From assembly GCA_029243025.1 (NCBI GenBank), contig JAQWSU010000030.1, forward strand, positions 62,001-126,000: a stretch of DNA of 64,000 nt, written 5' to 3'. The notes under the pieces were generated by a model. That model made no database searches. It saw only the letters and a program-made list of their open reading frames with translations, and was not told the origin of the DNA. Numbering within the stretch: the stretch's first letter is position 1; each line of letters opens with the position of its first letter. A program made the translations under genes and the position numbers. Positions 18,085 to 45,151 of this stretch are shown here, in pieces. This DNA comes from Pirellulaceae bacterium (GTDB taxonomy: Bacteria; Planctomycetota; Planctomycetia; Pirellulales; Pirellulaceae).

Positions 18085-18176
18085 AGGAATCGTTTCTCGA
18101 TGGCGGTAATGAAAGCCCCTAATTCGCAGCTCAGTCAGTGCGGCCCAGGCACCAACGTCGCTCCTCTTCTTCATTC

Positions 18177-19337
18177 TTAATACGCGTAGAGATTATTGTC
18201 TTGTAAACGGATCGACTTCTCGTAAACGGCGATTATGTTACGTGCGTAAACCGCATAAATGGGTTGATTCGAAGTCACGGACCAATCAGGCCCCGACAAA
18301 CTTAGCTCACGGTTGTTATCGAGATCATTATCGACCTCATCGGCAGCCAGGATTCGATACCAACGTAGAGTGATTGTGTTTGAGTAATTGGGATCCACCT
18401 GTTGCATCAACGCAACCCATTCGCCCGTCTTCATGTCACGAACCGTTGCCGCTTCGGGCGGCGCGTGCTGCTGTGATTCAACAGCGACTGTCTTTACGCC
18501 TGTCAATTCCCGAAACCCATTCTGGTTCATTGGAATGTTGACCGCGGCAATCGTCTCCTGCGGGGGAGTGATTGTCAGGTTTCGGCGATAGTAGACAACG
18601 ATTGACAACGTGTAGCGATCGGATGTTGGAATGGGATCTGGAACCAAAGTTGCCATCCAACTGTAACTGCCGGTGGCGTAACGTTTGTTGTTTTCTAAGT
18701 AGCGTTGAAACGGTGGTTGCGTTGCATCATCCGGTTGATCGAAAACTAATTCGTCACGCAGTAAAAACATTTCTTCGGCTTGTGCCAGCGACATAATTGG
18801 CGGATTGTTCAGCAACTGGTTGTTGATCGCTCCTGGCGGCCCTTGTCGCCGTAAGTCGCCGGGGCGGGCACTAATCAGGGTTACGCGTGGGATCGCAATC
18901 GGTGCATTCAGTGGAAAGGCAGCGACACTACTACTGGTGCCTGCTAAGTCGGCGAAACCGATCATCATCGGGTCCAAGCAGTAAGCCTGACGTACCAGTT
19001 TGCCATCGCCGGCCAGATTGTAAATCGCGTAGGGGTTTCCGGGCGATGGCCAGTACCAAAAAGGATTGGGCGCATCACTTGGGTTGGACATGTCCCCCGG
19101 GCGATCCAAGTCACGAATTCGAAATTCGCGAAAGGCACGACGCCCCATCATGGATTTACGATCGTCGCGAATTCCTTGAGCTGCCTTGTAGTGAGCGAGT
19201 GGAATTAGAGAGGCCACGCCGATTAAACCGATGCCGACCACTCCAATCGAAATCATCACCTCTAGCAGGCTGATTCCGGAATGTTGTGACCACGTCGCGG
19301 CAGTTGTGGCACGACCTTTGAGGGTGAAACGATTCAA
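18177..19337 (-). CDS. Prepilin-type protein (PilV/GspI-like)
   Basis: About 386 residues from TTG 19337. This start is chosen because GGGAGG lies just upstream of TTG and the upstream ATG (19385) would overlap the preceding gene by 46 bases. The leader ends in SG and is followed by ISLLEVMISIGVVGIGLIGVASLIPLA, a class III hydrophobic helix with Glu at +5, which suits a minor pseudopilin. The remaining 300 residues are soluble and carry no motif I recognise. The gene follows the 19340 frame with a two-base gap and precedes the giant GspK-like gene by two bases or about 90, depending on that gene's start. Confidence 0.82.
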   Translation of the reverse strand: MNRFTLKGRATTAATWSQHSGISLLEVMISIGVVGIGLIGVASLIPLAHYKAAQGIRDDRKSMMGRRAFREFRIRDLDRPGDMSNPSDAPNPFWYWPSPGNPYAIYNLAGDGKLVRQAYCLDPMMIGFADLAGTSSSVAAFPLNAPIAIPRVTLISARPGDLRRQGPPGAINNQLLNNPPIMSLAQAEEMFLLRDELVFDQPDDATQPPFQRYLENNKRYATGSYSWMATLVPDPIPTSDRYTLSIVVYYRRNLTITPPQETIAAVNIPMNQNGFRELTGVKTVAVESQQHAPPEAATVRDMKTGEWVALMQQVDPNYSNTITLRWYRILAADEVDNDLDNNRELSLSGPDWSVTSNQPIYAVYARNIIAVYEKSIRLQDNNLYAY

Positions 19338-19339
19338 AA

Positions 19340-20461
19340 CTAACGGCCTCCCATACTCTGCCCCGTGTCGGCGTATTGGCGGCATTCACCGATTAGGTTC
19401 CTGGCGTCGAAGGCGCCGGGATTTGTTAAGATGGTGTTCATCGTCGCAAGCGAGATGCCTGCATTTTCGGCACTGGAAACACGGCCAGAATGATTGGCGA
19501 TTGTTAACCAGATGTTTGCCTTTTCTTCCAGACTGGCCAGGCCCATGGGGCCAGTCACATTTTGAACAGCATCGTTGGTAATGTTTGTGGCTTTTTGCAA
19601 GTCGCGGCCAACTTTGTCAGAGCGGCCGATGAGCAAACTGATGTTGCTGGCGGGTCGGACTGCGAAAGTCGGTATGTTGGGTTCGTGGGAGATGAAATAA
19701 ACGTGGTCGATGCCGCCGTCCGGACCGAACATGATCGCAATGTCATACTCGGGACTCATTTCGCGGAATTTGGTCAGGCTTGGGGTGCCGGTATTCAAAT
19801 CGGCAAATCCCGAAACGGATAGATCGATGGCCGTGTTATTTGGCATCTCAATGGGCGAACTGACTGATTTCATCGGTTGCCGGAAGATCTCGAATGTTGT
19901 GCCCGTTATCGAATTGACATAACGAGCCGGTGTCAAAGGTCGCGGGGTTTGTGGAGGGACAGTAAAACTGATCTTTCTCGTGTCCATTCCCACGATTGGA
20001 TAGCGAGGACCGCGTTGATTTAAACGGATGAAGTCACCGATCTGAACTAATGTGGCAGCCGATTGACAACAGCTGATATCAGGAAGAAAGTTGGCTTCCC
20101 AAACGCCGGCGTTGCCTTGCGTGACGGCAACACGTGAGTCATCAAAGTCGCCCGAATAGGGTACCGGTTCTTCCGCCAAATAAACCTTGTAGACCGAATA
20201 CCAAAGTTCAGGTGGATCGTTCGGTTCGTGAGCGGCTCGTTCCAACCAGATGCCAACGGAGCGGCCGGTGGCCATGGCACGGGCTTGAGCGCCGGCGATC
20301 ATGACGTTCAGTTGCCGGGCTGCCTCCCGTGGATTGCGTCCTTTGAGGAGAGGCTGCACCATGGGCACGAGGGCGCCTGCGACGATCACCATGATGCTGA
20401 CGACGACCAATAGTTCGGTCAGCGTCAGTCCTCGTCGAGCTGTTGCCTGCTTCTCAACCAT
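19340..20461 (-). CDS. Prepilin-type protein (GspH-like)
   Basis: 373 residues. The N-terminus is MVEKQATARRG followed by LTLTELLVVVSIMVIVAGALVPM, a prepilin leader and helix with Glu at +5. The soluble part has no motif I recognise, although several segments (for example GRSVGIWLERAAHEPNDPPEL) look like a folded periplasmic domain. It is four bases after the previous prepilin gene's stop (20466) in the same operon. Placement among GspH-type minor pseudopilins is a guess based on length and position. Confidence 0.83.
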   Translation of the reverse strand: MVEKQATARRGLTLTELLVVVSIMVIVAGALVPMVQPLLKGRNPREAARQLNVMIAGAQARAMATGRSVGIWLERAAHEPNDPPELWYSVYKVYLAEEPVPYSGDFDDSRVAVTQGNAGVWEANFLPDISCCQSAATLVQIGDFIRLNQRGPRYPIVGMDTRKISFTVPPQTPRPLTPARYVNSITGTTFEIFRQPMKSVSSPIEMPNNTAIDLSVSGFADLNTGTPSLTKFREMSPEYDIAIMFGPDGGIDHVYFISHEPNIPTFAVRPASNISLLIGRSDKVGRDLQKATNITNDAVQNVTGPMGLASLEEKANIWLTIANHSGRVSSAENAGISLATMNTILTNPGAFDARNLIGECRQYADTGQSMGGR

Positions 20462-20465
20462 GTTG

Positions 20466-21512
20466 CTAGTTACCTGTGATCAACAGATGATTGTGGAGGT
20501 TGTCGATCGAATCATTCTGCCCATTACTATTCGTATCGACCCAAGCGCCCGCTGGTAAATCATCGCTTACGGCATAATTCCCCAACCCGACATAGGGATT
20601 GTTCGGTGGAATTGAGCTGCTGAAGTTCCGATTTGGTGAAATGTTTATTTCGTAAAGTTTGTCCGGTCCTGCGGAAAACACCAACGGATACATGGCAAAG
20701 GTGCCCTGGATCGCATACACACCGGCTGGATCGAACGCGTCGTTTGATTCGCGGTCTTGTATCGTGCCCGCAAGGTAGGCGATGGGTTGTTGGGGACTCA
20801 TGTCGTTCCAGCCGAATCCGGGAGCCCAACGCAAGAAAGCGATCGGATTGCCCCAGGCATCGAGGATTTCGGGCATGCCATCGGCATCCACATCCCCAAT
20901 TTCGGTGTCGGAAAAATATCGTAAAGCACTCGATTCTTCGTCAATCATTTGCGAAAGAATTAAGTACAAACACTCCGCCCCCTGATGCGTGGTTGACCAG
21001 CGACTATTGATTTCCGATTCACTGCTGAGCGGCGTGCCTTTCCGCTTAGCCAACATTTTTGCAGCCTTGGACAGGTAGGCTCGGGCCAGGAAGGGGGATT
21101 CACGCAGGACCACAGGCGGGAGTAGAAGATCACTCTTTCGTGCTGGGAGTTCCATCCGCATCAGCTCACGAATACCGTCGACTCGTGCGACCGTTGAGGC
21201 AGTGCGGAAGCGTGGATCGCCGCGTTGAATTTCCCTGCCGTTGTTACCCATGGGGCCGTCGGTGTGCGGCTGATACCGGCGGACGAAGGGGCTGACGCGT
21301 CGCGTGGCGTAGGATTCCCACTTTTCGGCAAGCAGCGCGTCGATACGTGCGATTTGAGCTCGAGTTCGATCACGTTTCGCGGACTCCTGGGCGCCGGCCA
21401 TCGCAAACAAAACGAACGATGCCAGCAGCCCAATGATGGAGATCGTCACGAGCAACTCGACTAACGTGAAGCCGTGTTTACAAGCGCGGGATCGATTCAA
21501 GCGATGCGTCAT
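20466..21512 (-). CDS. Prepilin-type protein (GspG/GspH-like)
   Basis: 348 residues. The leader MTHRLNRSRACKHG is followed by FTLVELLVTISIIGLLASFVLFAM, with Phe at +1 and Glu at +5, the classic prepilin peptidase signal and N-terminal helix. The rest is a soluble domain with Asp-rich stretches (GDVDADGMPEILDAWGNP) that may bind calcium. Its start overlaps the end of the preceding prepilin gene by four bases (21509-21512), which indicates translational coupling. Confidence 0.86.
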   Translation of the reverse strand: MTHRLNRSRACKHGFTLVELLVTISIIGLLASFVLFAMAGAQESAKRDRTRAQIARIDALLAEKWESYATRRVSPFVRRYQPHTDGPMGNNGREIQRGDPRFRTASTVARVDGIRELMRMELPARKSDLLLPPVVLRESPFLARAYLSKAAKMLAKRKGTPLSSESEINSRWSTTHQGAECLYLILSQMIDEESSALRYFSDTEIGDVDADGMPEILDAWGNPIAFLRWAPGFGWNDMSPQQPIAYLAGTIQDRESNDAFDPAGVYAIQGTFAMYPLVFSAGPDKLYEINISPNRNFSSSIPPNNPYVGLGNYAVSDDLPAGAWVDTNSNGQNDSIDNLHNHLLITGN

Positions 21513-22477
21513 GGCAATTTGCCCTCGAGCGACCCTTCGGCAAAGTTGGTGATGTTGTCTTGGTGAGGTCTGTTGGGATAGGGGCCGAGCGGATAAGTAA
21601 AGCCATTGTAGTTGGAGTTGTCTTGCTGAATCCCGAAGTCATTGTCCAGGCCAGCGGCAAGCACTTGGAACTTTTGTGCAGCGGCGTAGTCGTTGACTTG
21701 GTTGATATCGACAATTTCCTCCGCGTTCTGTTTGGCCAGATAAGGACGAGGGCAAGGGAAGGCCGCGTTGGTGTCAACGCCCGTGCGGCATACAAGCGAT
21801 GGTTGTTGAAACGCGCCCACATAGTTGTAGTGCGCCAGATAGACGTAGGGTAAATCCGAGGCGAAGCGAGGATAGTATTCCATGAAGCCATCGCCGTCTT
21901 TGTCAATCAGGCGTGTTGGGTCGAACTCAAAGATCGGCGTGCGTTGCACGGTGTCTGGTCGTACGCCGACGGGGCCGAACAATGGGTTCGCCGGATCGTC
22001 AGTGAAACCTCGTAACCAAAAGACCAACGCTTCGGATGGGTCGAGCGAAGCAAATAGATTGGCGCCGTTTGGGAGCGGCATGCCCGTCGCTGGATCACGC
22101 GGTACGTCAGTCGCCCGGTTGCGATATCGGAACAAACGAGTCAGGAACTGGTCGACTGCTTGGGCGTCGGGTGCCACCAGTTGCCGTGGGCCATTCACGA
22201 TAATCGGACCACTGAAGTCCGGAGGATAGCCGGCGTTGAATTCCGTGTTAAACGCTTCCAGCCCTTGCGAGAGGGTGGCAACTTCTGTCGTGATGCCGGC
22301 TTCCTGCACACTGGCGCGTGCAATACCTAAGACCGGGATCAGTAACGCGATCAAGATGCCGATAATGACAATCACCACTAGCAACTCAACCAGCGAAAAA
22401 CCAGCCGATGGTCGTGCCTCCGATGGTCGTGCCTCCGATGGTCGTTCGCGTTGAATTCCGCCCTGCGTCATCTGCAT
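21509..22477 (-). CDS. Prepilin-type protein, probably the major pseudopilin (GspG-like)
   Basis: 322 residues from ATG 22477, which has GGGAG six bases upstream; the longer frame upstream is not supported. A second ATG at 22471 follows. The leader is unusually long, about 26 residues including a RPSEARPSEARPS repeat, and ends in AG before FSLVELLVVIVIIGILIALLIP, a strong type IV helix. The soluble part includes PPDFSG and DKDGDGFMEYYP, again calcium-type. It is the first prepilin gene of the operon, 131 bases after the GspF gene. Calling it the major pseudopilin is inference from order. Confidence 0.85.
   Translation of the reverse strand: MQMTQGGIQRERPSEARPSEARPSAGFSLVELLVVIVIIGILIALLIPVLGIARASVQEAGITTEVATLSQGLEAFNTEFNAGYPPDFSGPIIVNGPRQLVAPDAQAVDQFLTRLFRYRNRATDVPRDPATGMPLPNGANLFASLDPSEALVFWLRGFTDDPANPLFGPVGVRPDTVQRTPIFEFDPTRLIDKDGDGFMEYYPRFASDLPYVYLAHYNYVGAFQQPSLVCRTGVDTNAAFPCPRPYLAKQNAEEIVDINQVNDYAAAQKFQVLAAGLDNDFGIQQDNSNYNGFTYPLGPYPNRPHQDNITNFAEGSLEGKLP
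22405..22449 (-). repeat. Three tandem 15-base units in the prepilin leader
   Basis: Two identical 15-base units and a third that differs at its end encode the repeating residues RPSEA in the leader just before the prepilin peptidase site. The mature pilin is unaffected by unit number. Confidence 0.9.
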
Positions 22478-22608
22478 GTCTCCCTTCGTGATTCCTTGGT
22501 CACCTCGGCAACTGCATTGCCTTGTCAGCTGTCGTGGCGGTTTCATCGCGGTGTTGCGACTTCTATTCGTTCGTGGTCTCAACGGACCGTTGCCCTGCTG
22601 GCGATGGC

Positions 22609-24006
22609 CTATTGGGACAGATTGGTGATTAAGCTGACGAGTGGCATGAAGAGCGAAATCACGATGAAACCTACGGCTCCACCGAGAAATACGATCATCA
22701 GCGGTTCCAGTAAGCTCATCAAACTGTCGGTGATCACAGCCACTTCTTCGTCGTACGTATCAGCGACTTTGTATAGCATCGTGTCAAGCTCGCCCGTTTC
22801 TTCACCGACGTCGACCATATTAACGACGAGGTCATCGGCGACGCGTGCTCGCATGGTGACTAAGTAATAAAGGCCCGCAGCGACCCCCACCATGGCGACG
22901 AGCGGAAACGCGAACACGGCGGCACCTTCCACCATGAACAGGCTCGCGCATGGCAGGGCGAGTGAAAGCCAGAGCCCGAAAGCGACCGGATGAAAGCCGG
23001 GGCTCGAATTTTCCTTCATCGGTTTGGCGATCGTTTCGCCTTCGCGAATTGAATCAGCGACTTGGCCGTATAAACGTTCGAACATCGCGTTGCCGCAAGT
23101 CTCGCGGGTGATGGTCAGTCCTTCTAGGATTGGCACACCGCTGGCCACCAGCGTTCCCAGGGTTCGTGTCGAGCGCGCCATCGAATTCTTTTCGATCAAG
23201 CGTCCGAAGACGGGCCACTTCAGGGAGAATAGGTCCCAGCCCATTCGGCCCGCTTTGAACTTGCGCACCATTTTTACGATGAGAACCAACCCAATCGGAA
23301 TGCCAGGGATTAAGAACCAGAAGTTTGCTACACCATGAGATATGGTGACCAACAACTTAGTCATCGCCGGTAACTCTGTATCGAAGTCGATAAAGATTTG
23401 TTCAAAGGTCGGCACAATATAAATCATGATACCCGACAGAATACTGACTGCGACCATCACGACGACGGATGGGTAAACCATGGCGCCTTTGACTTTGCGC
23501 TTTAATGCCTCGGATCGCTCCTTGAAGTCGGCGAGTCGCTGTAGGATGAGTTCCAGTGCACCGCCAGCTTCGCCGGCTTTGATCATGTTCACGTACAACC
23601 GATCGAAGGCTTTGGGGGATTTCGCCATCGCTTCGGATAAGGTCGATCCGCCTTCGATTTCATCACAGACGTCCATCAAGGAATTCTTGAGTCGACCCGG
23701 TTTGGACTGCTCTTCAAGAATTCTGAGGCTGCGCAGGATCGGCAAACCAGCATCTTGCAGAATTGACAACTGACGAGTAAACGTGCAGAGGTCTTTGCTT
23801 TTGACGCCGCCAATCGCAAAACCACGCTTGCGACCATCGGCTGACTTTTTCTCAGCCGTTTTGCGACCTTTTTTGACATGGATCTTCGTGACGAAATAAC
23901 CCATGTCTCGAATATACGTCTGGGCTTCGTCTTCGTTTTCCGCCTCGACGACGTCGCGGATCTCTTGACCCTTGGCATCCATAGCCTCAAATTGATACGT
24001 CGGCAT
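22609..24006 (-). CDS. gspF: GspF/PilC-family inner-membrane platform protein with an internal insertion
   Basis: 465 residues; the family is usually about 400. The N-terminal TYQFEAMDAKGQE segment (residues 3-15) and the paired domains starting at about 70 and 275 are recognisable (TFTRQLSILQDAGLPILRSL and TLGTLVASGVPILEGLTI). An additional stretch of about 55-60 residues (roughly 333-391) with two hydrophobic helices sits just before VVNMVDVGEETGELDTML, where the family normally continues directly. The last helix (about 430-455) is standard. The protein is the inner-membrane platform that links the ATPase to pilin assembly. The gene lies between the ATPase gene (70 bases) and the prepilins (131 bases), all on one strand. 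Confidence 0.92.
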   Translation of the reverse strand: MPTYQFEAMDAKGQEIRDVVEAENEDEAQTYIRDMGYFVTKIHVKKGRKTAEKKSADGRKRGFAIGGVKSKDLCTFTRQLSILQDAGLPILRSLRILEEQSKPGRLKNSLMDVCDEIEGGSTLSEAMAKSPKAFDRLYVNMIKAGEAGGALELILQRLADFKERSEALKRKVKGAMVYPSVVVMVAVSILSGIMIYIVPTFEQIFIDFDTELPAMTKLLVTISHGVANFWFLIPGIPIGLVLIVKMVRKFKAGRMGWDLFSLKWPVFGRLIEKNSMARSTRTLGTLVASGVPILEGLTITRETCGNAMFERLYGQVADSIREGETIAKPMKENSSPGFHPVAFGLWLSLALPCASLFMVEGAAVFAFPLVAMVGVAAGLYYLVTMRARVADDLVVNMVDVGEETGELDTMLYKVADTYDEEVAVITDSLMSLLEPLMIVFLGGAVGFIVISLFMPLVSLITNLSQ

Positions 24007-24076
24007 TGTGATCCCCCGCCACAGTTACGGGCAGTTACTCAAAATTGATAAAGTTGGAAGTGTTCTTGAATGGACT

Positions 24077-25801
24077 CTATGCATCCAGGATGGTTTCTCG
24101 CACGATTTCGTCGGCCGAGGTGACTCCTTCGTAGGCGAAATTCATGCCGTAGTCACGCAAGGTAATCATGCCATATTCTTGTGCCTTGTCGCGTAACTCA
24201 TCGGTGGATGATCCTTTGAGCACCATTTCTCTCAATTCGTCATTCATGACCATGAGTTCAAATAGTCCGACGCGGCCCTTGTAACCTGTATTATTGCAAG
24301 TGTCGCAGCCTTTACCGCGATAGAATTTGCGATCTTTTGCCTCTAATTCTTCTCGCGTGATCGCCAGTTGGGACAGTAAATCATCGGAAAGGCCGACTTC
24401 TTCCCGGCATTTTTCACAAACTCGTCGCACTAATCGTTGGGCCAGAATGGCTTCAACGGTTGCGGTGATCAGAAACGGTGGAATGCCCATGTCACGCAAT
24501 CGGGTGACGGTGCCGGGGGCGTCATTCGTGTGCAAGGTGCTGAATACCAAGTGACCCGTCAGGGAGGCCTGGACGGCGATTTCGGCCGTCTCCGTGTCGC
24601 GGATCTCACCAACGAGAATCGTGTCCGGGTCTTGTCGAAGAATGGCACGCAAACACTGAGCGAACGTGTTGCCAATATCGGCGTCGATCGGGATTTGGAT
24701 GATTCCATCGATGTCGTATTCGACCGGTTCTTCCGTCGTAATGATCTTTTCTTTGATGTCGTTCAGCTCGCTGAGGGCTGAATAAAGAGTCGTTGTTTTC
24801 CCCGAGCCGGTTGGTCCAGTCACCAGTACGATGCCGTTCGGCTTGTGCATGACCTCGCGGAAGCCAGCAATCGTCACTTCATTCATGCCGACCTTGTTCA
24901 GATCGAGCGAAACGACGGTCCGGTCGAGAACTCGCATGACGACACTCTCACCGAACATGGTTGGCATCACGCTAACGCGCAAGTCGACAGGGTGACCGCC
25001 CAGCGTCAGCTCAATGCGCCCGTCTTGAGGAAGTCGTCGTTCGGCAATGTCCAGATTTGCCATCACTTTGACGCGGGTCGTAATCGCGAACGCCAAGTGT
25101 CGTGGGGGAGGAACCATTTCGTACAAGACGCCATCTGACTTGATGCGGATGCGGAACTCTTCTTCAAATGGCTCCAAATGGATGTCGCTCGCGTGATCCT
25201 TGATCGCTAGTAGCAGTACCATGTTCAGCAGCTTACGAACCGGAGCACTGTCGGCCAAAGCCTCCGCACCCGTGATGTCGATGGGACCATCCTTGGTGAG
25301 CGATTCGGCTGCGGCTTCCAGTTCATCGTCTGTTTCCAGATCCGTTACGATGCTCTCGAACGTTTCCGACGAGCTGGCATAATGGCGTTCTAAGGCGGCG
25401 TTCAAGTCGCGTTCGGTGGCGACGAGCAATTTGATGTCGTAACCCAAGAACGTTCGCAACTCGTCTTGAATCGAAAGGTTTTGCGGATCGCAAGTTGCCA
25501 GCGTGAATTCGTTCCCTTCCAGCTTGACCGGAATGACCCGGTAGAGCTGAGCCATCGCTTCGGTAATCAACTCCATGACTTCCGGTGCAATTTGCACTTC
25601 GCCTAACTTGACGACCTGCATGCTCATCTGCTCGGCTAACGCCAGTGCAATCTGCTCGTCGGTGACCAGCCCCATCTCCTCTGCGATCTTGCCAAGAAGT
25701 TCGCCAGGATGGCGACGCTGTTCTTCTAACAGCATCTCCAGCTGTTCATCGTTGATGAAACCGAGGTCAACCAGGATTTGTCCGATTCGTCGAATGGCCA
25801 T
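24077..25801 (-). CDS. gspE: GspE/PilB-type secretion ATPase
   Basis: 574 residues. The N-terminal ~150 residues form the MshEN-type domain (QILVDLGFINDEQL, then LATCDPQNLSIQDELRTFLG). The ATPase core has Walker A GPTGSGKTTTLYSAL at about 329-343, the Asp box (EEPVEYDIDG), Walker B ILVGEIRD near 395-402 and the His box (STLHTNDAPG). Two CxxC pairs, at residues 462/465 and 499/502, form the tetracysteine zinc site typical of GspE. It hydrolyses ATP to drive pseudopilus assembly. It is the second such ATPase in this locus, next to PilT and followed by gspF. Confidence 0.93.
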   Translation of the reverse strand: MAIRRIGQILVDLGFINDEQLEMLLEEQRRHPGELLGKIAEEMGLVTDEQIALALAEQMSMQVVKLGEVQIAPEVMELITEAMAQLYRVIPVKLEGNEFTLATCDPQNLSIQDELRTFLGYDIKLLVATERDLNAALERHYASSSETFESIVTDLETDDELEAAAESLTKDGPIDITGAEALADSAPVRKLLNMVLLLAIKDHASDIHLEPFEEEFRIRIKSDGVLYEMVPPPRHLAFAITTRVKVMANLDIAERRLPQDGRIELTLGGHPVDLRVSVMPTMFGESVVMRVLDRTVVSLDLNKVGMNEVTIAGFREVMHKPNGIVLVTGPTGSGKTTTLYSALSELNDIKEKIITTEEPVEYDIDGIIQIPIDADIGNTFAQCLRAILRQDPDTILVGEIRDTETAEIAVQASLTGHLVFSTLHTNDAPGTVTRLRDMGIPPFLITATVEAILAQRLVRRVCEKCREEVGLSDDLLSQLAITREELEAKDRKFYRGKGCDTCNNTGYKGRVGLFELMVMNDELREMVLKGSSTDELRDKAQEYGMITLRDYGMNFAYEGVTSADEIVRETILDA

Positions 25802-25935
25802 AGGAACTTTGCGTTTGGGGTATTCTCTGGGAATTAAATGTTTGGGAATTAAATTAAATGGATCGAGCTGTCTGGAACCTTTTTCGTTCCTGCTGGATCG
25901 ATGTCGTCTAATGTCGCAACGAAGTTCAAACTCTT

Positions 25936-27048
25936 TTACTTCGTCGAATCACTGACATCTTCTTCGTCGTCGAACATTCCTTTTTGAGCGTTACTAATGC
26001 GTTTGGCTAAATCGTCTGGCGATTGGGCTTTTGCCAGTGCGTCTTCAATGCTGACCTTTTCCGCCTCCCACAGTTTGAATAGCGAATCGTCCATCAATAT
26101 CATGCCGTGTTTGTATCCAGTTTGAATCGCCGATGTGATGCGGTAGGTCTTGTTCTCACGAATCAAGTTGGCAATACCGGGTGTCACCGTGAGCAGTTCG
26201 TAAGCAGCGACTCGTCCGCCGCCCAATCTTGGCAGCAAGGTTTGAGCAAGCACGCCGATGATTGAGGTTGAAAGTTGGGTGCGAATCTGGTCCTGCTGGT
26301 TCGTGGGGAATACGTCGATAATACGGTTGACCGTGCCTTGTGCACTGTTCGTATGTAACGTTCCAAACACAACGTGACCTGTTTCCGCAGCGGTGATCGC
26401 TGCTTCGATCGTTTCCAAGTCACGCAATTCACCGACGAGAATCACATCCGGATCCTGACGCAGAGCTCGCTTGATCGCCTCCGCAAAACTGGGCACATCG
26501 TTGCCAACTTCGCGTTGATTGACGGTTGACTTCTTGTGGTAGTGATAAAACTCGATCGGGTCTTCAATCGTAATGATATGGTGATCCGCTTCGCGATTGA
26601 TGTAATCAATCATGCTCGCAAGCGTGGTGCTCTTGCCCGATCCGGTCGGACCGGTGACCAGGAACAAGCCTCGAGGTCGCATGCAAAGCTCGGAGATTTT
26701 CGGCGGTGTTCCCAACTGCTCAAAGCTGAGCATGTCGTTCGGGATTTGCCGCAATACCATCCCAATGTTGCCGCGTTGTTTGAAGATCGACACGCGAAAG
26801 CGCGCCTGATCCCCAAAAGCAAAGCCAAAGTCACTTCCGCCTTTTTCAGCCAATTCCTGTTGGCATCGGTCGGGGGTGATACTTTTCATCAACCCTTGCG
26901 TGTCCTCGGGCTCGAGAACCTTGGTTTCAAGCTTTCGCATTCGCCCATGCAGACGAAACACTGGCGGCTGTCCGACAGCGATATGAATATCGCTCGCACC
27001 CTGCTTCACGCAGGCAGCTAGCAATTTGTCAATTAGAATCGTGGCCAT
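25936..27048 (-). CDS. pilT: PilT-type retraction ATPase
   Basis: 370 residues, the usual PilT length. Walker A is GPTGSGKS (133-140), Walker B LVGELRD (204-210), and the His box is GTLHTNSAQGT (229-239). GIANLIRE at 291-298 corresponds to the AIRNLIRE motif that marks PilT rather than PilB. No zinc-binding cysteines are present, also as in PilT. PilT depolymerises type IV pili. It suggests that the locus makes a retractable fibre, or that pili and secretion share parts. Confidence 0.93.
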   Translation of the reverse strand: MATILIDKLLAACVKQGASDIHIAVGQPPVFRLHGRMRKLETKVLEPEDTQGLMKSITPDRCQQELAEKGGSDFGFAFGDQARFRVSIFKQRGNIGMVLRQIPNDMLSFEQLGTPPKISELCMRPRGLFLVTGPTGSGKSTTLASMIDYINREADHHIITIEDPIEFYHYHKKSTVNQREVGNDVPSFAEAIKRALRQDPDVILVGELRDLETIEAAITAAETGHVVFGTLHTNSAQGTVNRIIDVFPTNQQDQIRTQLSTSIIGVLAQTLLPRLGGGRVAAYELLTVTPGIANLIRENKTYRITSAIQTGYKHGMILMDDSLFKLWEAEKVSIEDALAKAQSPDDLAKRISNAQKGMFDDEEDVSDSTK

Positions 27049-27509
27049 GATCGTTTTCCCGCGACGGGGCCGAGCTCACACCACCGACGATCGTGACTCT
27101 AGAACCTCTCCTCTGTTCGTGGGCCCCCCACAGGATCTGTAGGTGTGCACCAAGAGCCGGTTCTCGAATTAGATCCCAGAAATGCAAGATGTGGATCGAC
27201 AAGAACGCCACCGGCCCCTATTCAATGGCGTTGCAGTTGCCGAAGATTATTCACATTCTGTGGCGATGAAACAAGTTTATCTCCGGTTATTCGTTGATTT
27301 GATCGCTCAACTGCGATCGTGTTGACATGATACGGTCTGTCGTTGGCAGCGGCCCCCACCCGTTGCCAACTGCCCCGCAGGGCAATCTCCATTGTATCCG
27401 CTTTGGCGAAGTAACGAACTTGTTTCTGCTTGCCGAATTGAAGTTCCGCCCCCCCCCCTGCCGGCCATCAGTTGGCTCGATCGGCCGCCCATTTGATCGT
27501 TTCAACTAT
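27049..27509. other. 461-base gap between pilT and the first gspE, with a C10 tract
   Basis: No gene-like frame was found. The segment includes a run of ten C at 27449-27458 on the plus strand and an inverted repeat at about 27343-27371 (GTTGGCA...TGCCAAC arms) downstream of the 27510 stop. It has no T-run to make it a clear terminator. The pilT promoter is probably here. Confidence 0.5.
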
Positions 27510-29228
27510 TTAGCCTGCCGCGACATCCGATTCGGTTCGCTTGGCGACCCGATAGACCTCGTCCAAGGTGGTCACGCCACGCAAAACTTTATCAAGTCCA
27601 TCGCGGTAAAGTGTTGTCATACCTTCACTAATCGCCACCTCACGGATGTCGACCGCCGACGCATTTTCGAATACCAGTTCGCGAACTCGACTGGTCATGA
27701 TCATGAGTTCGTAGATACCAATTCGGCCTCGATACCCCCCATTATTACAGGCCGCACAGCCGGCTCCTTTCATGAAGGTGGCCTCAGCGGCTGCCTCAGC
27801 CGAAATGCCCGAATCTGCTAATTCTGCGTCGGAAATTGTATGGGGTTGTTTACATTTGGAGCAGACAACGCGTACCAGACGTTGGGCAAGAACGGCGATC
27901 ACACTGCTTGCCACCAGATAATTCGGCACTCCGATGTCGACCATGCGTGTCATCGCACTGGGCGCATCGTTCGTATGGAGTGTACTGAATACCAAGTGTC
28001 CAGTTAAAGACGCTTGGATACCCATCGATGCGGTCTCCATGTCTCGCATTTCACCCACCAGGATGATGTTGGGCGCTTGACGCAGCATGGAGCGAATGAT
28101 GCGGGCAAAGTCGAGTCCGATGCTGTGACGGACTTCCACCTGATTGATCCCCGGTAAGTAATATTCCACCGGATCTTCTGCCGTGATGATTTTTCGATCC
28201 GGTCGATTGAGCTCATTTAAGGCCGCATACAAAGTGGTGGTCTTGCCAGAGCCGGTCGGGCCGGTGACCAACACAATCCCATTTGGCCGTCGGATCAGTC
28301 CTGTGAACTGATCATAGGTTGCTTCGTTCAAGCCCAGCTGTCGGACGCCGACTTTAATGTTGTCCTTGTCGAGCAGTCGCATCACGACCGATTGGCCGTG
28401 ATTGGTTGGAATCACGCTGACGCGGAGGTCCAGTTCCTTGTCCCCGGTGGTGATTTTGATTCGACCATCTTGGGTGCGACGACGCTCAGCGATGTCCATT
28501 TTGGCGAGAATCTTGATGCGGCTGAGCAAAGCGCCCAGCAAGCGGCGGGGTGGGCTATCCCGTTCGACCAGGACGCCGTCGATGCGATATCGAACCCGAA
28601 CGCGGTCTTCGAACGGCTCAATGTGAATGTCAGAGGCTCGCAACTGTACGGCCTCGGCAATCATCAGTTGGACTAGCTTGACGATCGGGGCACTGTGTTC
28701 GTCGACGACCTCGGAATTGTCGCTAGAAGCCTCCTCGGTTTCGGTGAAATCGATCGCCGTATCGGTAAATTCCTGCAGCATCGAGTCGGCACTTTCACCC
28801 TCGATCTGGCCATAATACCGGTTGATCGCTTCCAGGATGCTCTCGCGAGTCGCCAAAGCGATTTCGATTTGACAATTGAGGATGAAACGCAGTTTGTCGA
28901 ATGTTTCCAGGTCAAGCGGATCGCTGACGATCACGCGTAACGCGTCATCACTCGCTTCATCGAGTGGCAGAATCGTGTTTTCGCGGGCAACTGACTCAGG
29001 CACAAGTTCAACGACAGTGGGCGAAATGGAGGTTTCGTTCAAATCGATGAATTCTAAGTTGTGCTCTTCAGCGATGGTGCGCATCACTTGTTCAGCCGTT
29101 GCGTAACCTAGGCTGACGAGCGCCTCGCCGACGCTCGTGGCCTGATCGCGAGAGACCTGGTCAGCGTGGGTGAGTTGTTCTTTACTGATGACGCCATTGC
29201 GAATCAGGATGTCGGTAAACATCGCCAT
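27510..29228 (-). CDS. gspE: GspE/PilB-type secretion ATPase, second copy
   Basis: 572 residues from ATG 29228, which has AAGGA about 7 bases upstream; the frame opens at 29273 without a Shine-Dalgarno. The N-terminal MshEN-type domain (FTDILIRNGVISKEQLTHAD) precedes the ATPase core. Walker A is GPTGSGKTTTLYAAL (about 323-337), the Asp box EDPVEYYLPG, Walker B ILVGEMRD (about 389-396), and CSKC and CAAC are the zinc-binding pairs. It resembles the 24077 protein closely but differs throughout, so they are paralogues rather than a recent duplication. It opens the ATPase block of the locus. Confidence 0.93.
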   Translation of the reverse strand: MAMFTDILIRNGVISKEQLTHADQVSRDQATSVGEALVSLGYATAEQVMRTIAEEHNLEFIDLNETSISPTVVELVPESVARENTILPLDEASDDALRVIVSDPLDLETFDKLRFILNCQIEIALATRESILEAINRYYGQIEGESADSMLQEFTDTAIDFTETEEASSDNSEVVDEHSAPIVKLVQLMIAEAVQLRASDIHIEPFEDRVRVRYRIDGVLVERDSPPRRLLGALLSRIKILAKMDIAERRRTQDGRIKITTGDKELDLRVSVIPTNHGQSVVMRLLDKDNIKVGVRQLGLNEATYDQFTGLIRRPNGIVLVTGPTGSGKTTTLYAALNELNRPDRKIITAEDPVEYYLPGINQVEVRHSIGLDFARIIRSMLRQAPNIILVGEMRDMETASMGIQASLTGHLVFSTLHTNDAPSAMTRMVDIGVPNYLVASSVIAVLAQRLVRVVCSKCKQPHTISDAELADSGISAEAAAEATFMKGAGCAACNNGGYRGRIGIYELMIMTSRVRELVFENASAVDIREVAISEGMTTLYRDGLDKVLRGVTTLDEVYRVAKRTESDVAAG

Positions 29229-29637
29229 CGAATTGTCCTTCTCTGCTTCAGCTAAAACAGGCCGCCCTACCACGTTCCGGATTGCAGCTCAGGGCGGGCA
29301 AAAGCAAAAGACGGTCAGAAGATTCGAGACCGCCAAGCGGCAGAATTGCCCTAACTTGCTTAATGGCCCAGAGTAGTGGCCCCTCCAATGATTGTCAATC
29401 TACGCGGGTCACGAGGCTAGGACGTTTCGACAGTCTGAGACAGTTGGGCGTTCTGTTACCACGATCGTGCCGGATTGGAGGTGTGCAGGTTGAGGTGTGC
29501 AGGTTGAGGCTTTGATCAACCCTTTTTCGTGGGTTGACGATGGCCAAGCTTCTCGACGGTCGTGTCAAGCTTACCTAACATCTGTCGGCCGCGGGGCCCC
29601 AGAGCTCCCCGCCCCAGAGCTCCCGATCCTCGTTTCT
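29229..29637. other. 409-base gap with two short tandem duplications
   Basis: Holds the upstream region of the 27510-29228 ATPase gene. Two short tandem duplications are visible: gaggtgtgcaggtt twice (29478-29505) and a 15-base unit containing ccccagagctccc (29596-29624). No frame looks like a gene, and no RNA was recognised. Confidence 0.5.
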
Positions 29638-41346: not shown

Positions 41347-41695
41347 GGCTAGAGAATCACGTTCTGCTGCTTCGACCCATGCTGTTGGCCGATCCAAGGG
41401 CGATTAATCAAGCTGAACATCTGGGTGGGAATCCGCTGGCTGAAGAAGGAAAACGGTGAACTCAGGCTACTGGAGTCAGGCTTCGGCAGCTTAACTTGGT
41501 AACGAATCTAGCGACGTTTATGGCTCGGAGTTACCATAGAAACTACGGTATCTGTCGGTCAGGGCGCCTTTCAAAAAGGTCTGCCAGCGGATATTCACCA
41601 AAAAATCTCGGCACCGAATGCGAAACAATCGCTGGTTATCGCGGGTAGTAGTCTTCGGGATCGTCTGCTTTTCGTTACGAGTCAAATTGAATCAT
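41347..41695. other. Intergenic region upstream of the secretin-like gene
   Basis: About 350 bases without a supported gene. It may contain the promoter of the 41696 gene. An alternative upstream start for that gene lies at 41618. Confidence 0.4.
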
Positions 41696-44600
41696 ATGAG
41701 TATTTCTGAGTTGTCTAATTCTCTGACCTTTTCGTGTCGGTTTGTCGTGTTGGTCGCCTGTCTGATGATGGACCCATCAACGACCGCGATGGCTGCAGAC
41801 CCCACGTTTGTGGGTCAGCTTTCCACCATGGTTCGTCCTGAGATCGCCAGGGAGATTGAGCTTTCGCCTCGTCAACTGGATCAATTGAATCGACTGATCG
41901 ATCGTCGCGAATCCGAGGCACTCGAGCTGGCCATTTCATCGCGAGGGCTCGAAGCGGCTGCCCGAAAACAGAAACTTGCCGATTTTGTGACTGAATCTGA
42001 GCGACAAGGATTCAAGCTGTTAAGTTCTCGCCAAGCAGCCGCGTTCCGAGTCACGCAGTTAAAGGAAAAAGGCTTGGGCGCATTAGGTGATGCGGACGTT
42101 GCCACTAAGCTTGATTTGAAAAAGGAACAAAAGCAACAAGTTCAGCAATTGCTGCAAGCGCGTGATCAAGAATTGACGGGAGCCGACTCGTCGCGCCGAG
42201 CAACCGTGCGAGCTGAATATGAACGGCAACTCAACAAAATTCTGAATGAAACGCAACGGCAAAACTGGGGCCGCATGACGACGGTCGATCGTGATTTGGC
42301 AGCCTCCGAAGGAAGTAAAGGGGAGCAAGTCGTTGACAAGGTCGCCACTGGCGACCCCGATCGGTCTGTTGGCACTGACGATCAACGCCAAGCGGGACCG
42401 GCCTCGGGCAATGGACAGTTGCGATTTAATTTTCGTTACGCACCCTGGAGCGACGTGCTGGACTGGTTCGCCGAGCGAGCCGATTTATCCTTGGTATTGG
42501 ACGCGCCACCGCCGGGAACCTTCAATTACACCGATAATCAGAGCTACACTCCGGCCCAAGCGATCGATCTCATTAACAGTGTCTTATTGACGAAGGGCTA
42601 TGTTCTGGTTCGTCGCGAGAGAATGTTGTTGCTGATCAATTTAGAAGATGGCATTCCGCCCAATCTAGTCACGACGGTGCCGGTCAGCGAACTGGATCGT
42701 CGTGGTGAATTTGAGTTGGTGAGTTGCTTGTTCCCATTGGAACGTGTGGCTCCGGAAGAGGCCGAAGAGGAAATTAGTGCCTTGATCGGACCGCAGGGAG
42801 CGGTCCAAGTCCTCTCCAAGGCAAAACAGTTGTTGGTGACTGAAACGGCTGGACGCTTGCGGACCATCCGGGATGTGTTGCAGGCGGTGGAAGATCCAGA
42901 TGACCTGCGCAGTCGGCAAGTAACCTTGGTCGATCTGAAACATGTGCGACCGACGGAAGCGTTGCCCGTCATTCGCCAAATGATGGGATTTCCCGAGGAG
43001 ATGGATGCTGCGCCGGATGGATCGTTTCGGATGACGGTGGATCCCTCGGGCAGGCGGTTAATGCTGAAGGGAAAGGCCGATTTGATTTCGCAAGTGGAAA
43101 ATATCATCGAGTTAGTTGATGTGCCTCCGAGTCAGGGCATTCTGGACACCCCGCAGATCGAGTTTTACAGCGTTCAGTCCGCTGATCCAGAGTCCGTGTT
43201 ACAGGTCGTCGAGACCTTGTTGGCAGACGAACCCGACGTGCGTTTGGCGTCGGATCCGAAAACGGGCAACCTAGTGGCCATGGGCCTTCCTTCTCACCAT
43301 GCGACGATTCGGGCGACGCTTGACCAGATGGAACGAGATGGTCAGTCGATTGAAGTTTTGAAATTGCGCTATATCGATCCGCAACTTGCGATGCTATCGA
43401 TCAACAAGCTGTTTGGTTCGGGGGAGGAAGGTGGCCGAGCGGCACCTCGTGTTGATGCGGACATCACAACTGGACAATTGATGGTTCGTGGAACCAAATC
43501 GCAGATTGAACAGATCCGCGCACTGATGGAGAAAATGGGGGAAATGGATGCGGACGAATCGAGCGATCTCCAAAGGTCACGAAACGTTCGACTCCTGTCG
43601 ATGTCACCCGGTGAAGCCAGCTCTTTATTAGAGAAAGCGGGACAAATCTGGCCGACCATGCGCAAGAATCGGATTCGTGCCTTCGTACCTGCCGAAGGTC
43701 GCTCGATTGTCCCCAGCGACAACCCGACCGATTCAGACGGCGATGCTTCGAATACCCCCGATGGTCCGCCAGAAAAACGTCGCATCTCCGTGCCGGGGAC
43801 CTTGCGAAGTGGTCAGCATGATCGATTCCAGGAGATTTGGGCAATGGATGATTCTCCGATTCCGACTGCCCGGAAGGAGGCTCCCGAAATCGACCAAGCA
43901 AGCCTGCCATGGCTGGGTATGACCCCTATCTCTCAACTCATGGTGCTTTCACCTCAATCGGATTCCACTCAGCCGAGTCGTTCGACCCAGGAGAATGCGG
44001 ATGTGATGAGCGATTTGGCTGCAATCGCGAAGGACAATCGCGAAAGTGTTCCTGGTGCCGATATCGTGGTAGCCGAGAGTCCGCAAGGATTGATGATTGC
44101 TTCTCGTGATCTTGAGGCATTGAACGAGTTTGAACAACTGTTACTGTCATTGTCAGAACGCGAGATGGCGGGCAGCGAATTTGCTGTCTTTTATCTGCGG
44201 CACGCGACGGCGGAATCTGCCGCTGCTGTCCTGATGGATGTGCTGGGAGGAGGCGGTGCATCGTCGGCGAACAGTGCACCCGCGGGCGGGGGCCTGTTGG
44301 GCAGTCTCGCCGGTGCGGCTTTGGGAGATGCGGGCGGCGGGCTTGTTGGATCATTGTTAGGCCTCGATGGCGATGGGGGGGCTGCGTCTTATTCATCATC
44401 CGGATCCTTCAAAATTATCTCTGAACCACGTCTGAACTTTCTCATCGTGCAAGCCAATCTTCAAGACATGCAGTTAATCGAAGCGATGTTGGAAGTGATC
44501 GATCAACGCAAAAGCACGGTCGTTGTAGAGACCATCCCGGCTCCGAGATTAATTCCTGTTCGTAACACGAGTGCAGAAGAAATCGCGGGGATTGTGCGGG

Positions 44601-45151
44601 AAGTTTATGCGAACCGACTTGCCAATGGTGGCGGGTCACAACGGCAGCCGTCACCGGAGGAGTTCATCAAGGCTCTGCGTGGTGGCGGAGGCAAAGGTGG
44701 CGGAGATCGTGCTGCGGAAGAACAAAATAAATTGACAATCGGTGTGGATAAACGGCGGAATTCATTGGTTGTTGCTGCTCCTGATGCTCTGTTTGAAGAA
44801 GTGAAAGTGTTAGTTGGGCATTTGGATCAAGTAGATAATGCGGTGATGGAAATGACACGCGTGATCACGTTGCGGAAGGCCGATCCGGAGTTGGTGCGGC
44901 AGGCCCTGGCTCAGTTGGTCGGCGAAGCGCCCTCCGCCTCTACGAATCAAATTCCGACGTCGACCGCTTCGGGCGGTGGTAGTTTATCCTCCAGCAAATC
45001 GGCGGATTCCGCCTCACAGTCGCAAAAAAAACGGGGCGGATCCCGACCCGGTAACGATTTGAACGAGATGCGCCGCGGCCTGGAATTCATGCGAGCTCTC
45101 CAGCAATCAGGCTCTGGCGGTGGTAAGCGATCGGGCCGTGGTAGACGGTAA
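41696..45151 (+). CDS. Secretin-like N-domain protein without a secretin barrel
   Basis: About 1,151 residues from ATG 41696, chosen because it gives a signal peptide (RFVVLVACLMMDPSTTAMAA); an upstream ATG at 41618 would add 26 residues. After a charged helical segment come several repeats of the secretin N1/N2 type: for example LRFNFRYAPWSDVLDWFAER (N0-like), VTLVDLKHVRPTEALPVIRQMM, IEVLKLRYIDPQLAMLSINKLF, FAVFYLRHATAESAAAVLMDVL and MTRVITLRKADPELVRQAL. Gly-rich linkers (GGGGASSANSAPAGGG, GGGGKGGGDR) lie between late repeats. The C-terminus is Ser/Gly/Lys rich and shows no secretin barrel motif. It may form a periplasmic ring or scaffold and not the outer-membrane channel. It is transcribed alone. 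Confidence 0.82.
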   Translation: MSISELSNSLTFSCRFVVLVACLMMDPSTTAMAADPTFVGQLSTMVRPEIAREIELSPRQLDQLNRLIDRRESEALELAISSRGLEAAARKQKLADFVTESERQGFKLLSSRQAAAFRVTQLKEKGLGALGDADVATKLDLKKEQKQQVQQLLQARDQELTGADSSRRATVRAEYERQLNKILNETQRQNWGRMTTVDRDLAASEGSKGEQVVDKVATGDPDRSVGTDDQRQAGPASGNGQLRFNFRYAPWSDVLDWFAERADLSLVLDAPPPGTFNYTDNQSYTPAQAIDLINSVLLTKGYVLVRRERMLLLINLEDGIPPNLVTTVPVSELDRRGEFELVSCLFPLERVAPEEAEEEISALIGPQGAVQVLSKAKQLLVTETAGRLRTIRDVLQAVEDPDDLRSRQVTLVDLKHVRPTEALPVIRQMMGFPEEMDAAPDGSFRMTVDPSGRRLMLKGKADLISQVENIIELVDVPPSQGILDTPQIEFYSVQSADPESVLQVVETLLADEPDVRLASDPKTGNLVAMGLPSHHATIRATLDQMERDGQSIEVLKLRYIDPQLAMLSINKLFGSGEEGGRAAPRVDADITTGQLMVRGTKSQIEQIRALMEKMGEMDADESSDLQRSRNVRLLSMSPGEASSLLEKAGQIWPTMRKNRIRAFVPAEGRSIVPSDNPTDSDGDASNTPDGPPEKRRISVPGTLRSGQHDRFQEIWAMDDSPIPTARKEAPEIDQASLPWLGMTPISQLMVLSPQSDSTQPSRSTQENADVMSDLAAIAKDNRESVPGADIVVAESPQGLMIASRDLEALNEFEQLLLSLSEREMAGSEFAVFYLRHATAESAAAVLMDVLGGGGASSANSAPAGGGLLGSLAGAALGDAGGGLVGSLLGLDGDGGAASYSSSGSFKIISEPRLNFLIVQANLQDMQLIEAMLEVIDQRKSTVVVETIPAPRLIPVRNTSAEEIAGIVREVYANRLANGGGSQRQPSPEEFIKALRGGGGKGGGDRAAEEQNKLTIGVDKRRNSLVVAAPDALFEEVKVLVGHLDQVDNAVMEMTRVITLRKADPELVRQALAQLVGEAPSASTNQIPTSTASGGGSLSSSKSADSASQSQKKRGGSRPGNDLNEMRRGLEFMRALQQSGSGGGKRSGRGRR

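Follow-up and report, generated by a model that had tools for sequence, protein, structure and literature searches.

A barrel-less array of secretin N-domains in a Pirellulaceae bacterium, a candidate inner half of a split type II secretion secretin

A secretin is commonly regarded as one protein that takes care of both the docking at the inner membrane and the pore in the outer membrane, and planctomycetes are known for their wide, folded periplasm. Here we analyse a gene (41618-45151, + strand) found in a window of 64,000 nucleotides from a Pirellulaceae bacterium, that is, positions 62001-126000 of contig C30 of a genome (G000) of 8.35 Mb in 60 contigs. The gene encodes an array of secretin N-modules without an outer-membrane barrel. 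We give a probability of roughly 0.55 to the reading that a secretin of a type II secretion system (T2SS) is split here, this protein being the half that faces the inner membrane, and that a separate barrel-bearing secretin without the N0 domain continues the conduit, the likeliest partner being a protein of 1353 amino acids (aa) encoded on contig C6.

In GspD, the N0 domain is reported to bind the HR domain of the inner-membrane protein GspC (PMC3169554), the N-modules of a secretin are described as stacking into rings (PMC5745081), and the N-domain of XcpQ is reported to form rings without the C-terminal pore domain (PMC5646246). The array resembles GspD, XcpQ and PulD in that its N0 and N-module folds are identical in kind and order and in that many of its relatives stand in a T2SS operon context. 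However, it has no barrel, more modules, a Spy-like region in front and split and half modules, and its pore half is apparently a separate gene. A long periplasmic part with additional stacked N-domains is also seen in Thermus PilQ and in Deinococcus DR_0774, and the latter (8co1) is the best PDB profile match of the array family (E 1.4e-17). Thermus PilQ is described as six stacked N-rings plus secretin with a length of 350 A (PMC5745081). Nevertheless, PilQ is a single protein with a barrel and six rings, whereas the array is barrel-less and its relatives fused to a barrel have 36-51 modules. An N0-like domain on a protein other than the pore former is reportedly found in VirB7 of Xanthomonas. 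The same has been described for DotD (PMC2951367). Unlike the array, DotD and VirB7 appear as small lipoproteins of type IV secretion with one such domain. Regarding RcpC of the Tad pilus, the periplasmic ring of a separate protein joins the outer-membrane secretin, as we propose for the array; compared by description, RcpC differs in being an inner-membrane-anchored dodecamer, and its abstract mentions no array of N0 and Secretin_N domains (PMC12307814). Among the matches listed in our search of the open-access literature, barrel-less, split or giant planctomycete secretins were not described, closed journals and preprints being outside that search.

The array gene is an intact open reading frame (ORF) of 1177 aa. 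An earlier sequence-only reading had placed the start at 41696, which is Met27 of this ORF and probably the likelier start, as by eye it suits a signal peptide better; in the alignment, the sister-genus copy starts shortly upstream of the equivalent ...A-ADPTFVG junction. The parts of the protein are the following:

41696-41794, + strand: putative signal peptide, seen by eye (AMA-AD junction, kept as A-ADPTFVG in near relatives)
41801-42301, + strand: helical region (residues 62-228), probably two LTXXQ/Spy-like repeats (AlphaFold2 helices, profile matches)
42413-42643, + strand: N0 domain (266-342), from VIA-align to 4jtm and 3oss_D
42716-42898, + strand: N1 module (367-427), from the module hidden Markov model (HMM) and AlphaFold2
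42923-43126, + strand: N2 module (436-503), from module HMM and AlphaFold2
43154-43342, + strand: N3 module (513-575), from module HMM, AlphaFold2 and VIA-align
43346-43537, + strand: N4 module (577-640), from module HMM and AlphaFold2
43586-44164, + strand: N5 module in two pieces (657-689, 816-849) with a low-complexity insert between them, from AlphaFold2 secondary structure; no match of the module HMM
44177-44506, + strand: N6 module (854-963) with a Gly-rich hydrophobic loop at about 44249-44407, from alignment, HMM and AlphaFold2
44546-44830, + strand: N7 module (977-1071), the insert of which contains QPSPEEFIKALRGGG, from alignment, HMM and AlphaFold2
44858-44941, + strand: half module (1081-1108), first strand and helix only (HMM positions 1-28, E 8e-5; AlphaFold2 helix 1090-1100), recurring in other arrays
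44942-45148, + strand: Ser/Gly/Arg/Lys-rich tail, mostly of low model confidence

Pfam recognised Secretin_N (PF03958) in six stretches of the protein (E 1.4e-52) and its N0 model below threshold (E 0.045), and our custom module HMM found six full modules and a half. In the AlphaFold2 model (57 sequences; mean predicted local distance difference test, pLDDT, 72.9; predicted template modelling score, pTM, 0.35) the helices lie at 62-228, N0 at 271-341 and the modules at 367-425, 436-500, 513-573, 577-639, 657-689 plus 816-849, 854-961 and 977-1069. The fifth module is interrupted by an insert of about 120 residues, and the sixth and seventh both hold Gly-rich inserts, that of the sixth being a loop of low confidence at about 878-930. 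A helix at 1090-1100 is followed by the tail, mostly of low confidence, with one helix and zero strands. The repeated modules announced by the sequence-only reading, at least five, are really there, although they were undercounted, the HMM and AlphaFold2 together giving N0, seven modules and a half; its Ser/Gly/Lys-rich C-terminus is borne out as Ser/Gly/Arg/Lys-rich.

The top Foldseek matches of the model were the N0-N1-N2 structures of XcpQ and GspD. With VIA-align, residues 263-342 were superposed on GspD N0 4jtm (Z 11.5, root-mean-square deviation, rmsd, 2.5 over 80) and residues 266-342 on GspD as seen in its complex with GspC, 3oss_D (Z 10.6, rmsd 1.8 over 77), whereas the fit of 269-575 to PulD holds domain by domain only (Z 14.9, rmsd 18.1 over 287). 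As modelled, the protein thus has an N0 domain. The helical region 62-228 probably corresponds to two LTXXQ/Spy-like repeats, the resemblance being weak: the array family profile matched the Spy structures 3oeo (profile positions 136-220, E 0.0022) and 3o39 (58-123, E 0.0078), HMMs of the region also match separate LTXXQ-type genes near some arrays, and Pfam LTXXQ matched 2/40 arrays at E 0.01, the window protein being unmatched.

Neither Pfam (PF00263), nor the custom HMM, nor AlphaFold2 found a barrel in the window protein, just as the sequence-only reading had it; the structure prediction that it proposed for the C-terminal part gave no barrel and no strands in the tail. A hidden barrel and a frameshift or assembly error had been set beforehand as the two things that could overturn this, and neither was found. 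Against the NCBI GspD profile TIGR02517 (cut-off 351.35 bits) the window protein fails with 151 bits, its best stretch covering positions 31-331 of 600; the 1353-aa secretin of contig C6 (locus L038) passes with 358.7 bits, its best stretch being 160-597. By its defining barrel, therefore, the window protein is outside the secretin family, and it looks built like the periplasmic half of a secretin.

Barrel-less arrays are a family and not an artefact. The window protein is matched in 59/60 genomes of the same taxonomic family, its own included (in G014 only at E 7.2e-4), and the copy of a sister genome has 1173 aa and is 59-60% identical. A scan of the genome collection with the single window protein gave no matches; a pattern scan by N0 motifs gave at least 80 named loci, 78/80 of them from named planctomycetes. 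We compared 120 array rows, 104 with the stop inside the locus and 16 without, which include same-genome repeats (L111 is the contig of L071, and L112 and L123 resemble copies of L079 and L075); set A4 omits L144, L148, L150 and L167 out of 59 complete named arrays. Pfam found Secretin_N in 40/40 arrays and PF00263 in 0/40, and the custom HMM found the barrel in 0/120. The arrays have mostly 6-8 modules by HMM, and six rows have 19-31. In 67/104 arrays the final match was a first-half module, in 13 it reached the end of the HMM and in 24 neither; we therefore rejected the half module as a universal feature. A Gly-rich hydrophobic loop, defined by rule, occurred in 57/104 arrays and in 6/33 of the large secretins described below; it is absent from the two other arrays of the genome itself, and as a shared membrane hairpin it is not a defining part. 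Most arrays (83/104) end in Arg, and a Gly/Ser/Arg-rich tail is found in other arrays too.

The genome itself has three arrays: the window protein and two others, of 1017 and 2070 aa, on contig C6. The former (L035:9482-19247) overlaps an EF-hand gene and adjoins an LTXXQ-type gene, with divergent genes for an extracytoplasmic function (ECF) sigma factor and a Ser/Thr kinase nearby. The latter (L037:5335-11547; also L036) has 24 modules and a half, lacks the tail, and heads a T2SS operon that ends with a 1290-aa secretin.

Regarding the secretins with a barrel, the genome search proposed by the sequence-only reading found four PF00263 proteins, on contigs C6 and C22, and the idea that the genome has no true secretin is thus rejected. 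Those of 1290 and 1353 aa end T2SS-type operons; a 556-aa protein with a pilus-type N-terminal and BON domains is another kind of secretin. The relatives examined have PF00263 secretins as well (20/20). From strong PF00263 matches in frames of about 1100 aa or more we collected 33 large T2SS-type secretins (2 from the genome itself, 2 from named loci and 29 from relatives). All of them were positive with the barrel HMM (28/28, and 5 added later), and the N0 HMM matched 0/33, with best domain E values of 1.1-1.3. In addition, by comparison of coordinates, none of 55 N0 places in 21 genomes shares an ORF with a PF00263 place. In these T2SS-type proteins, therefore, N0 and the barrel are separate. 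In the L036 and L038 secretins the first N-module begins directly after the apparent signal peptide; over the 33, the start of the first module match ranges over residues 31-356, several of the frames being stop-to-stop and over-extended, and the absence of room for an N0 is clear only for those two. For one N0-less secretin, an AlphaFold2 model of residues 1-700 (two sequences, mean pLDDT 47.7) is too weak to count; it has a strand-helix-strand-strand-helix module soon after the N-terminal helix. We also considered that the half module of an array might be completed by a free half module at the start of a secretin, and found no support for this, the L036 and L038 secretins opening, by eye, with a near-full module.

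The gene order in relatives, which the sequence-only reading had proposed to compare, places arrays at the head of T2SS operons in many of them, not in the clade of the window gene. The next-closest rows, L074, L075 and L080, head such operons. GspE and GspF follow the array, directly or one gene on, in 19/40 array loci, and GspE is directly downstream in 25/57 named loci where room of 1.5 kb or more was available. In the fullest clusters the order is array, GspE, GspF, pseudopilins, GspK, PilM-like and GspM-like genes; five genomes (our own in the operon of the 2070-aa array, G001, G004, G011 and G037) have also the N0-less secretin and a lipoprotein in the cluster, the secretin being on the opposite strand in G037. 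The T2SS of the 1353-aa secretin (about 505-521 kb of C6) comprises GspE, GspF, pseudopilins, GspK, PilM-like and GspM-like proteins and a lipoprotein, and has no array. The GspM-like proteins of T2SS-type operons (L038:16539-17759, L203, L204, L207) carry an Ig/cadherin-like domain, He_PIG.

Arrays and secretins also go together by type. Long arrays, that is, frames of 1590 aa or more (a cut set after the list was seen), occur in 9/21 genomes, which are exactly the nine with the L036-type secretin clade (100/100), and 12 genomes have neither (Fisher p 3.4e-6, uncorrected for descent). The array group L084-L086, L089, L090 and L095-L097 (Shimodaira-Hasegawa-like approximate likelihood ratio test, SH-aLRT, 100, in a quick tree) and a secretin group (100/100) come from one and the same set of eight genomes. 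The arrays of the window and of G004 are sisters, and so are the L038 and L204 secretins, but the L036 and L197 secretins are sisters too, and this pair is not decisive.

In other classes the two halves are found in one protein. Of 244 genomes sampled from the phylum, 55 matched the N0 profile, 25 of them in the class of the window, Planctomycetia; the count for the class covers genomes with a match and gives no rate of misses. Outside the class, N0 and barrel share one ORF in 23 of the 30 matches. The other seven are one closed barrel-less array, five that run off contig ends, and one in two overlapping frames (L236, G279), perhaps by a frameshift or sequencing error. The closed array (L260, G197) has 2117 aa and 26 modules and by eye ends in a half module; arrays without a barrel thus occur outside the class of the window too. 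Seven of the 23 fused proteins are giants of 3,580-5,073 aa with N0, 36-51 Secretin_N modules and a barrel:

G091, G263, G156, G141, G061, G207 and G289 (loci L231-L234 and L237-L244): giant fused secretins

In G156 the giant closes a run from GspE to a GspM-like gene, followed by a gene that by eye is lipoprotein-like. The barrel tree places the 33 N0-less secretins in one group (100/100) and the seven giants in another (99/93), and both stand together versus ten ordinary-sized secretins (99/91; midpoint root).

The literature on XcpQ, GspD and PilQ, together with the domain, context and co-occurrence data, leads us to the inner-half reading. The N0 of the window protein would dock to the inner-membrane platform, its seven N-modules would form rings stacked in the periplasm, and a separate N0-less secretin carrying the barrel would continue the conduit to the outer membrane; the Spy-like region may have a role in it. 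By exclusion, the likeliest partner would be the 1353-aa secretin L038 of the C6 T2SS, because the operon of the 1290-aa secretin already contains the 2070-aa array, whereas that of L038 contains none. The sequence-only reading had suggested a scaffold that replaces or completes a channel formed by another protein. The replacement finds no support, with PF00263 secretins in the genome itself and in all relatives examined; the completion, in which the two proteins would be in contact, is favoured indirectly by the arrays at the head of T2SS operons, the N0-less secretins, the co-occurrence and the fused forms.

Several observations weigh against this reading. The window gene is outside any T2SS operon, its neighbours being a porin O/P gene and, on either side of it, genes for a Cys-rich protein and a sodium:solute symporter, and in its own nine-row clade (the window, L071-L073, L076, L078, L079, L082 and L087) GspE adjoins the array in 0/9; our confidence is reduced because of this clade. 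GspE is not directly downstream in 32/57 of the named loci with room, the stretch examined after the operon shows no labelled secretin in G021, G023 and G059, and an HR or PilP domain was not identified by sequence in the GspM-like partner. The third array class goes with EF-hand genes, in our genome LTXXQ, ECF sigma and kinase genes accompany it too, and no third N0-less secretin to match it was seen; from this class, arrays may also work outside T2SS. The custom N0 HMM matched 120/120 arrays, a count that is partly circular, the HMM being built from 57 of the 120 and the 80 named loci being found via N0 motifs; the fair count is 40/40, in rows from the whole-protein search. The fourth PF00263 protein of the genome, of 1204 aa (L039:4346-7957, C22) and of another kind, has by eye an N0-like stretch before its own barrel, with a weak N0 HMM piece (domain E 0.21). 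The N0 result for secretins covers the large T2SS-type kind, the set of 33 having left out the shorter kinds of secretin and a weaker-scoring kind of similar length. Finally, trees may be congruent through species descent alone, which could yield part of the agreement between arrays and secretins.

Some of these points would suit a free-standing periplasmic scaffold or chaperone-like ring, untied from any secretion channel, in which the Spy-like region would bind clients and the N-modules would form the ring: that region is present, the nine-row clade lies outside T2SS operons and a paralogue class associates with EF-hand genes. Nevertheless, N0 is kept in 40/40 rows that were not selected by an N0 motif, the next-closest rows head T2SS operons, and array and secretin types co-occur, and we find such a scaffold rather unlikely. 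The array might otherwise serve, as inner ring or alignment complex, another locus of the window and not the C6 T2SS:

12718-29273, - strand: locus like a T2SS or type IV pilus (T4P) system, with three T2SSE-type genes (GspE-like and PilT-like ATPases), GspF, four N-methyl pseudopilin-like proteins and a 1818-aa protein

Of the pseudopilin-like proteins, two pass the Pfam cut-off and two fall slightly short of it; PilT-like and, for the 1818-aa protein, GspK-like are names that we give from our own reading of the sequences. The locus is a near neighbour of the array gene and may be a candidate for the same system only; the sister genome G004 (L071) has a similar locus, whose nearest T2SSE-type gene is about 4 kb away from the array. 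However, PF00263 has no match on C30 in six frames, so that the locus lacks a secretin of its own, as the sequence-only reading had stated; no PilM-like or GspM-like gene was found in it either, and related arrays elsewhere sit with full T2SS operons. We therefore regard this assignment as unlikely, and more doubtful than the scaffold.

That the array, with N-domains shared with secretins and no pore, acts in regulation or assembly, capping the N-rings of the secretin or competing with them rather than extending them, seems very improbable, given that the fused proteins of the phylum put N0 near one end of a continuous chain that runs to the barrel. The barrel might also have been lost by truncation or decay of a secretin, or by an assembly or frame error, as could be suspected in a protein that stops within a module. 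But the ORF is intact, the 1173-aa sister copy is conserved, the barrel is present in 0/120 arrays and in none of the six frames of C30, and the final match is a first-half module in most complete arrays (67/104); for practical purposes, this explanation is refuted.

We therefore keep the inner-half reading, and from it we tentatively propose, at a little under even odds, a wider picture. The secretin conduits of Planctomycetota would be longer than any others known. Some classes would make them as a single chain of up to 5,073 aa with N0, 36-51 modules and barrel; the class of the window would make them from two proteins, a stack of rings with N0 and a pore without it, which join at their ends to span the periplasm. 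The window protein would be the first of the two. If this is true, at 2.5-3 nm per ring (our estimate), the window array would measure about 20-25 nm and the giants more than 100 nm. If the tasks are split between genes, or one protein is stretched to some 50 modules, the two halves could be handled separately in work on secretin assembly. This would bear on protein export by planctomycetes and help to annotate T2SS loci that seemingly have no complete GspD.

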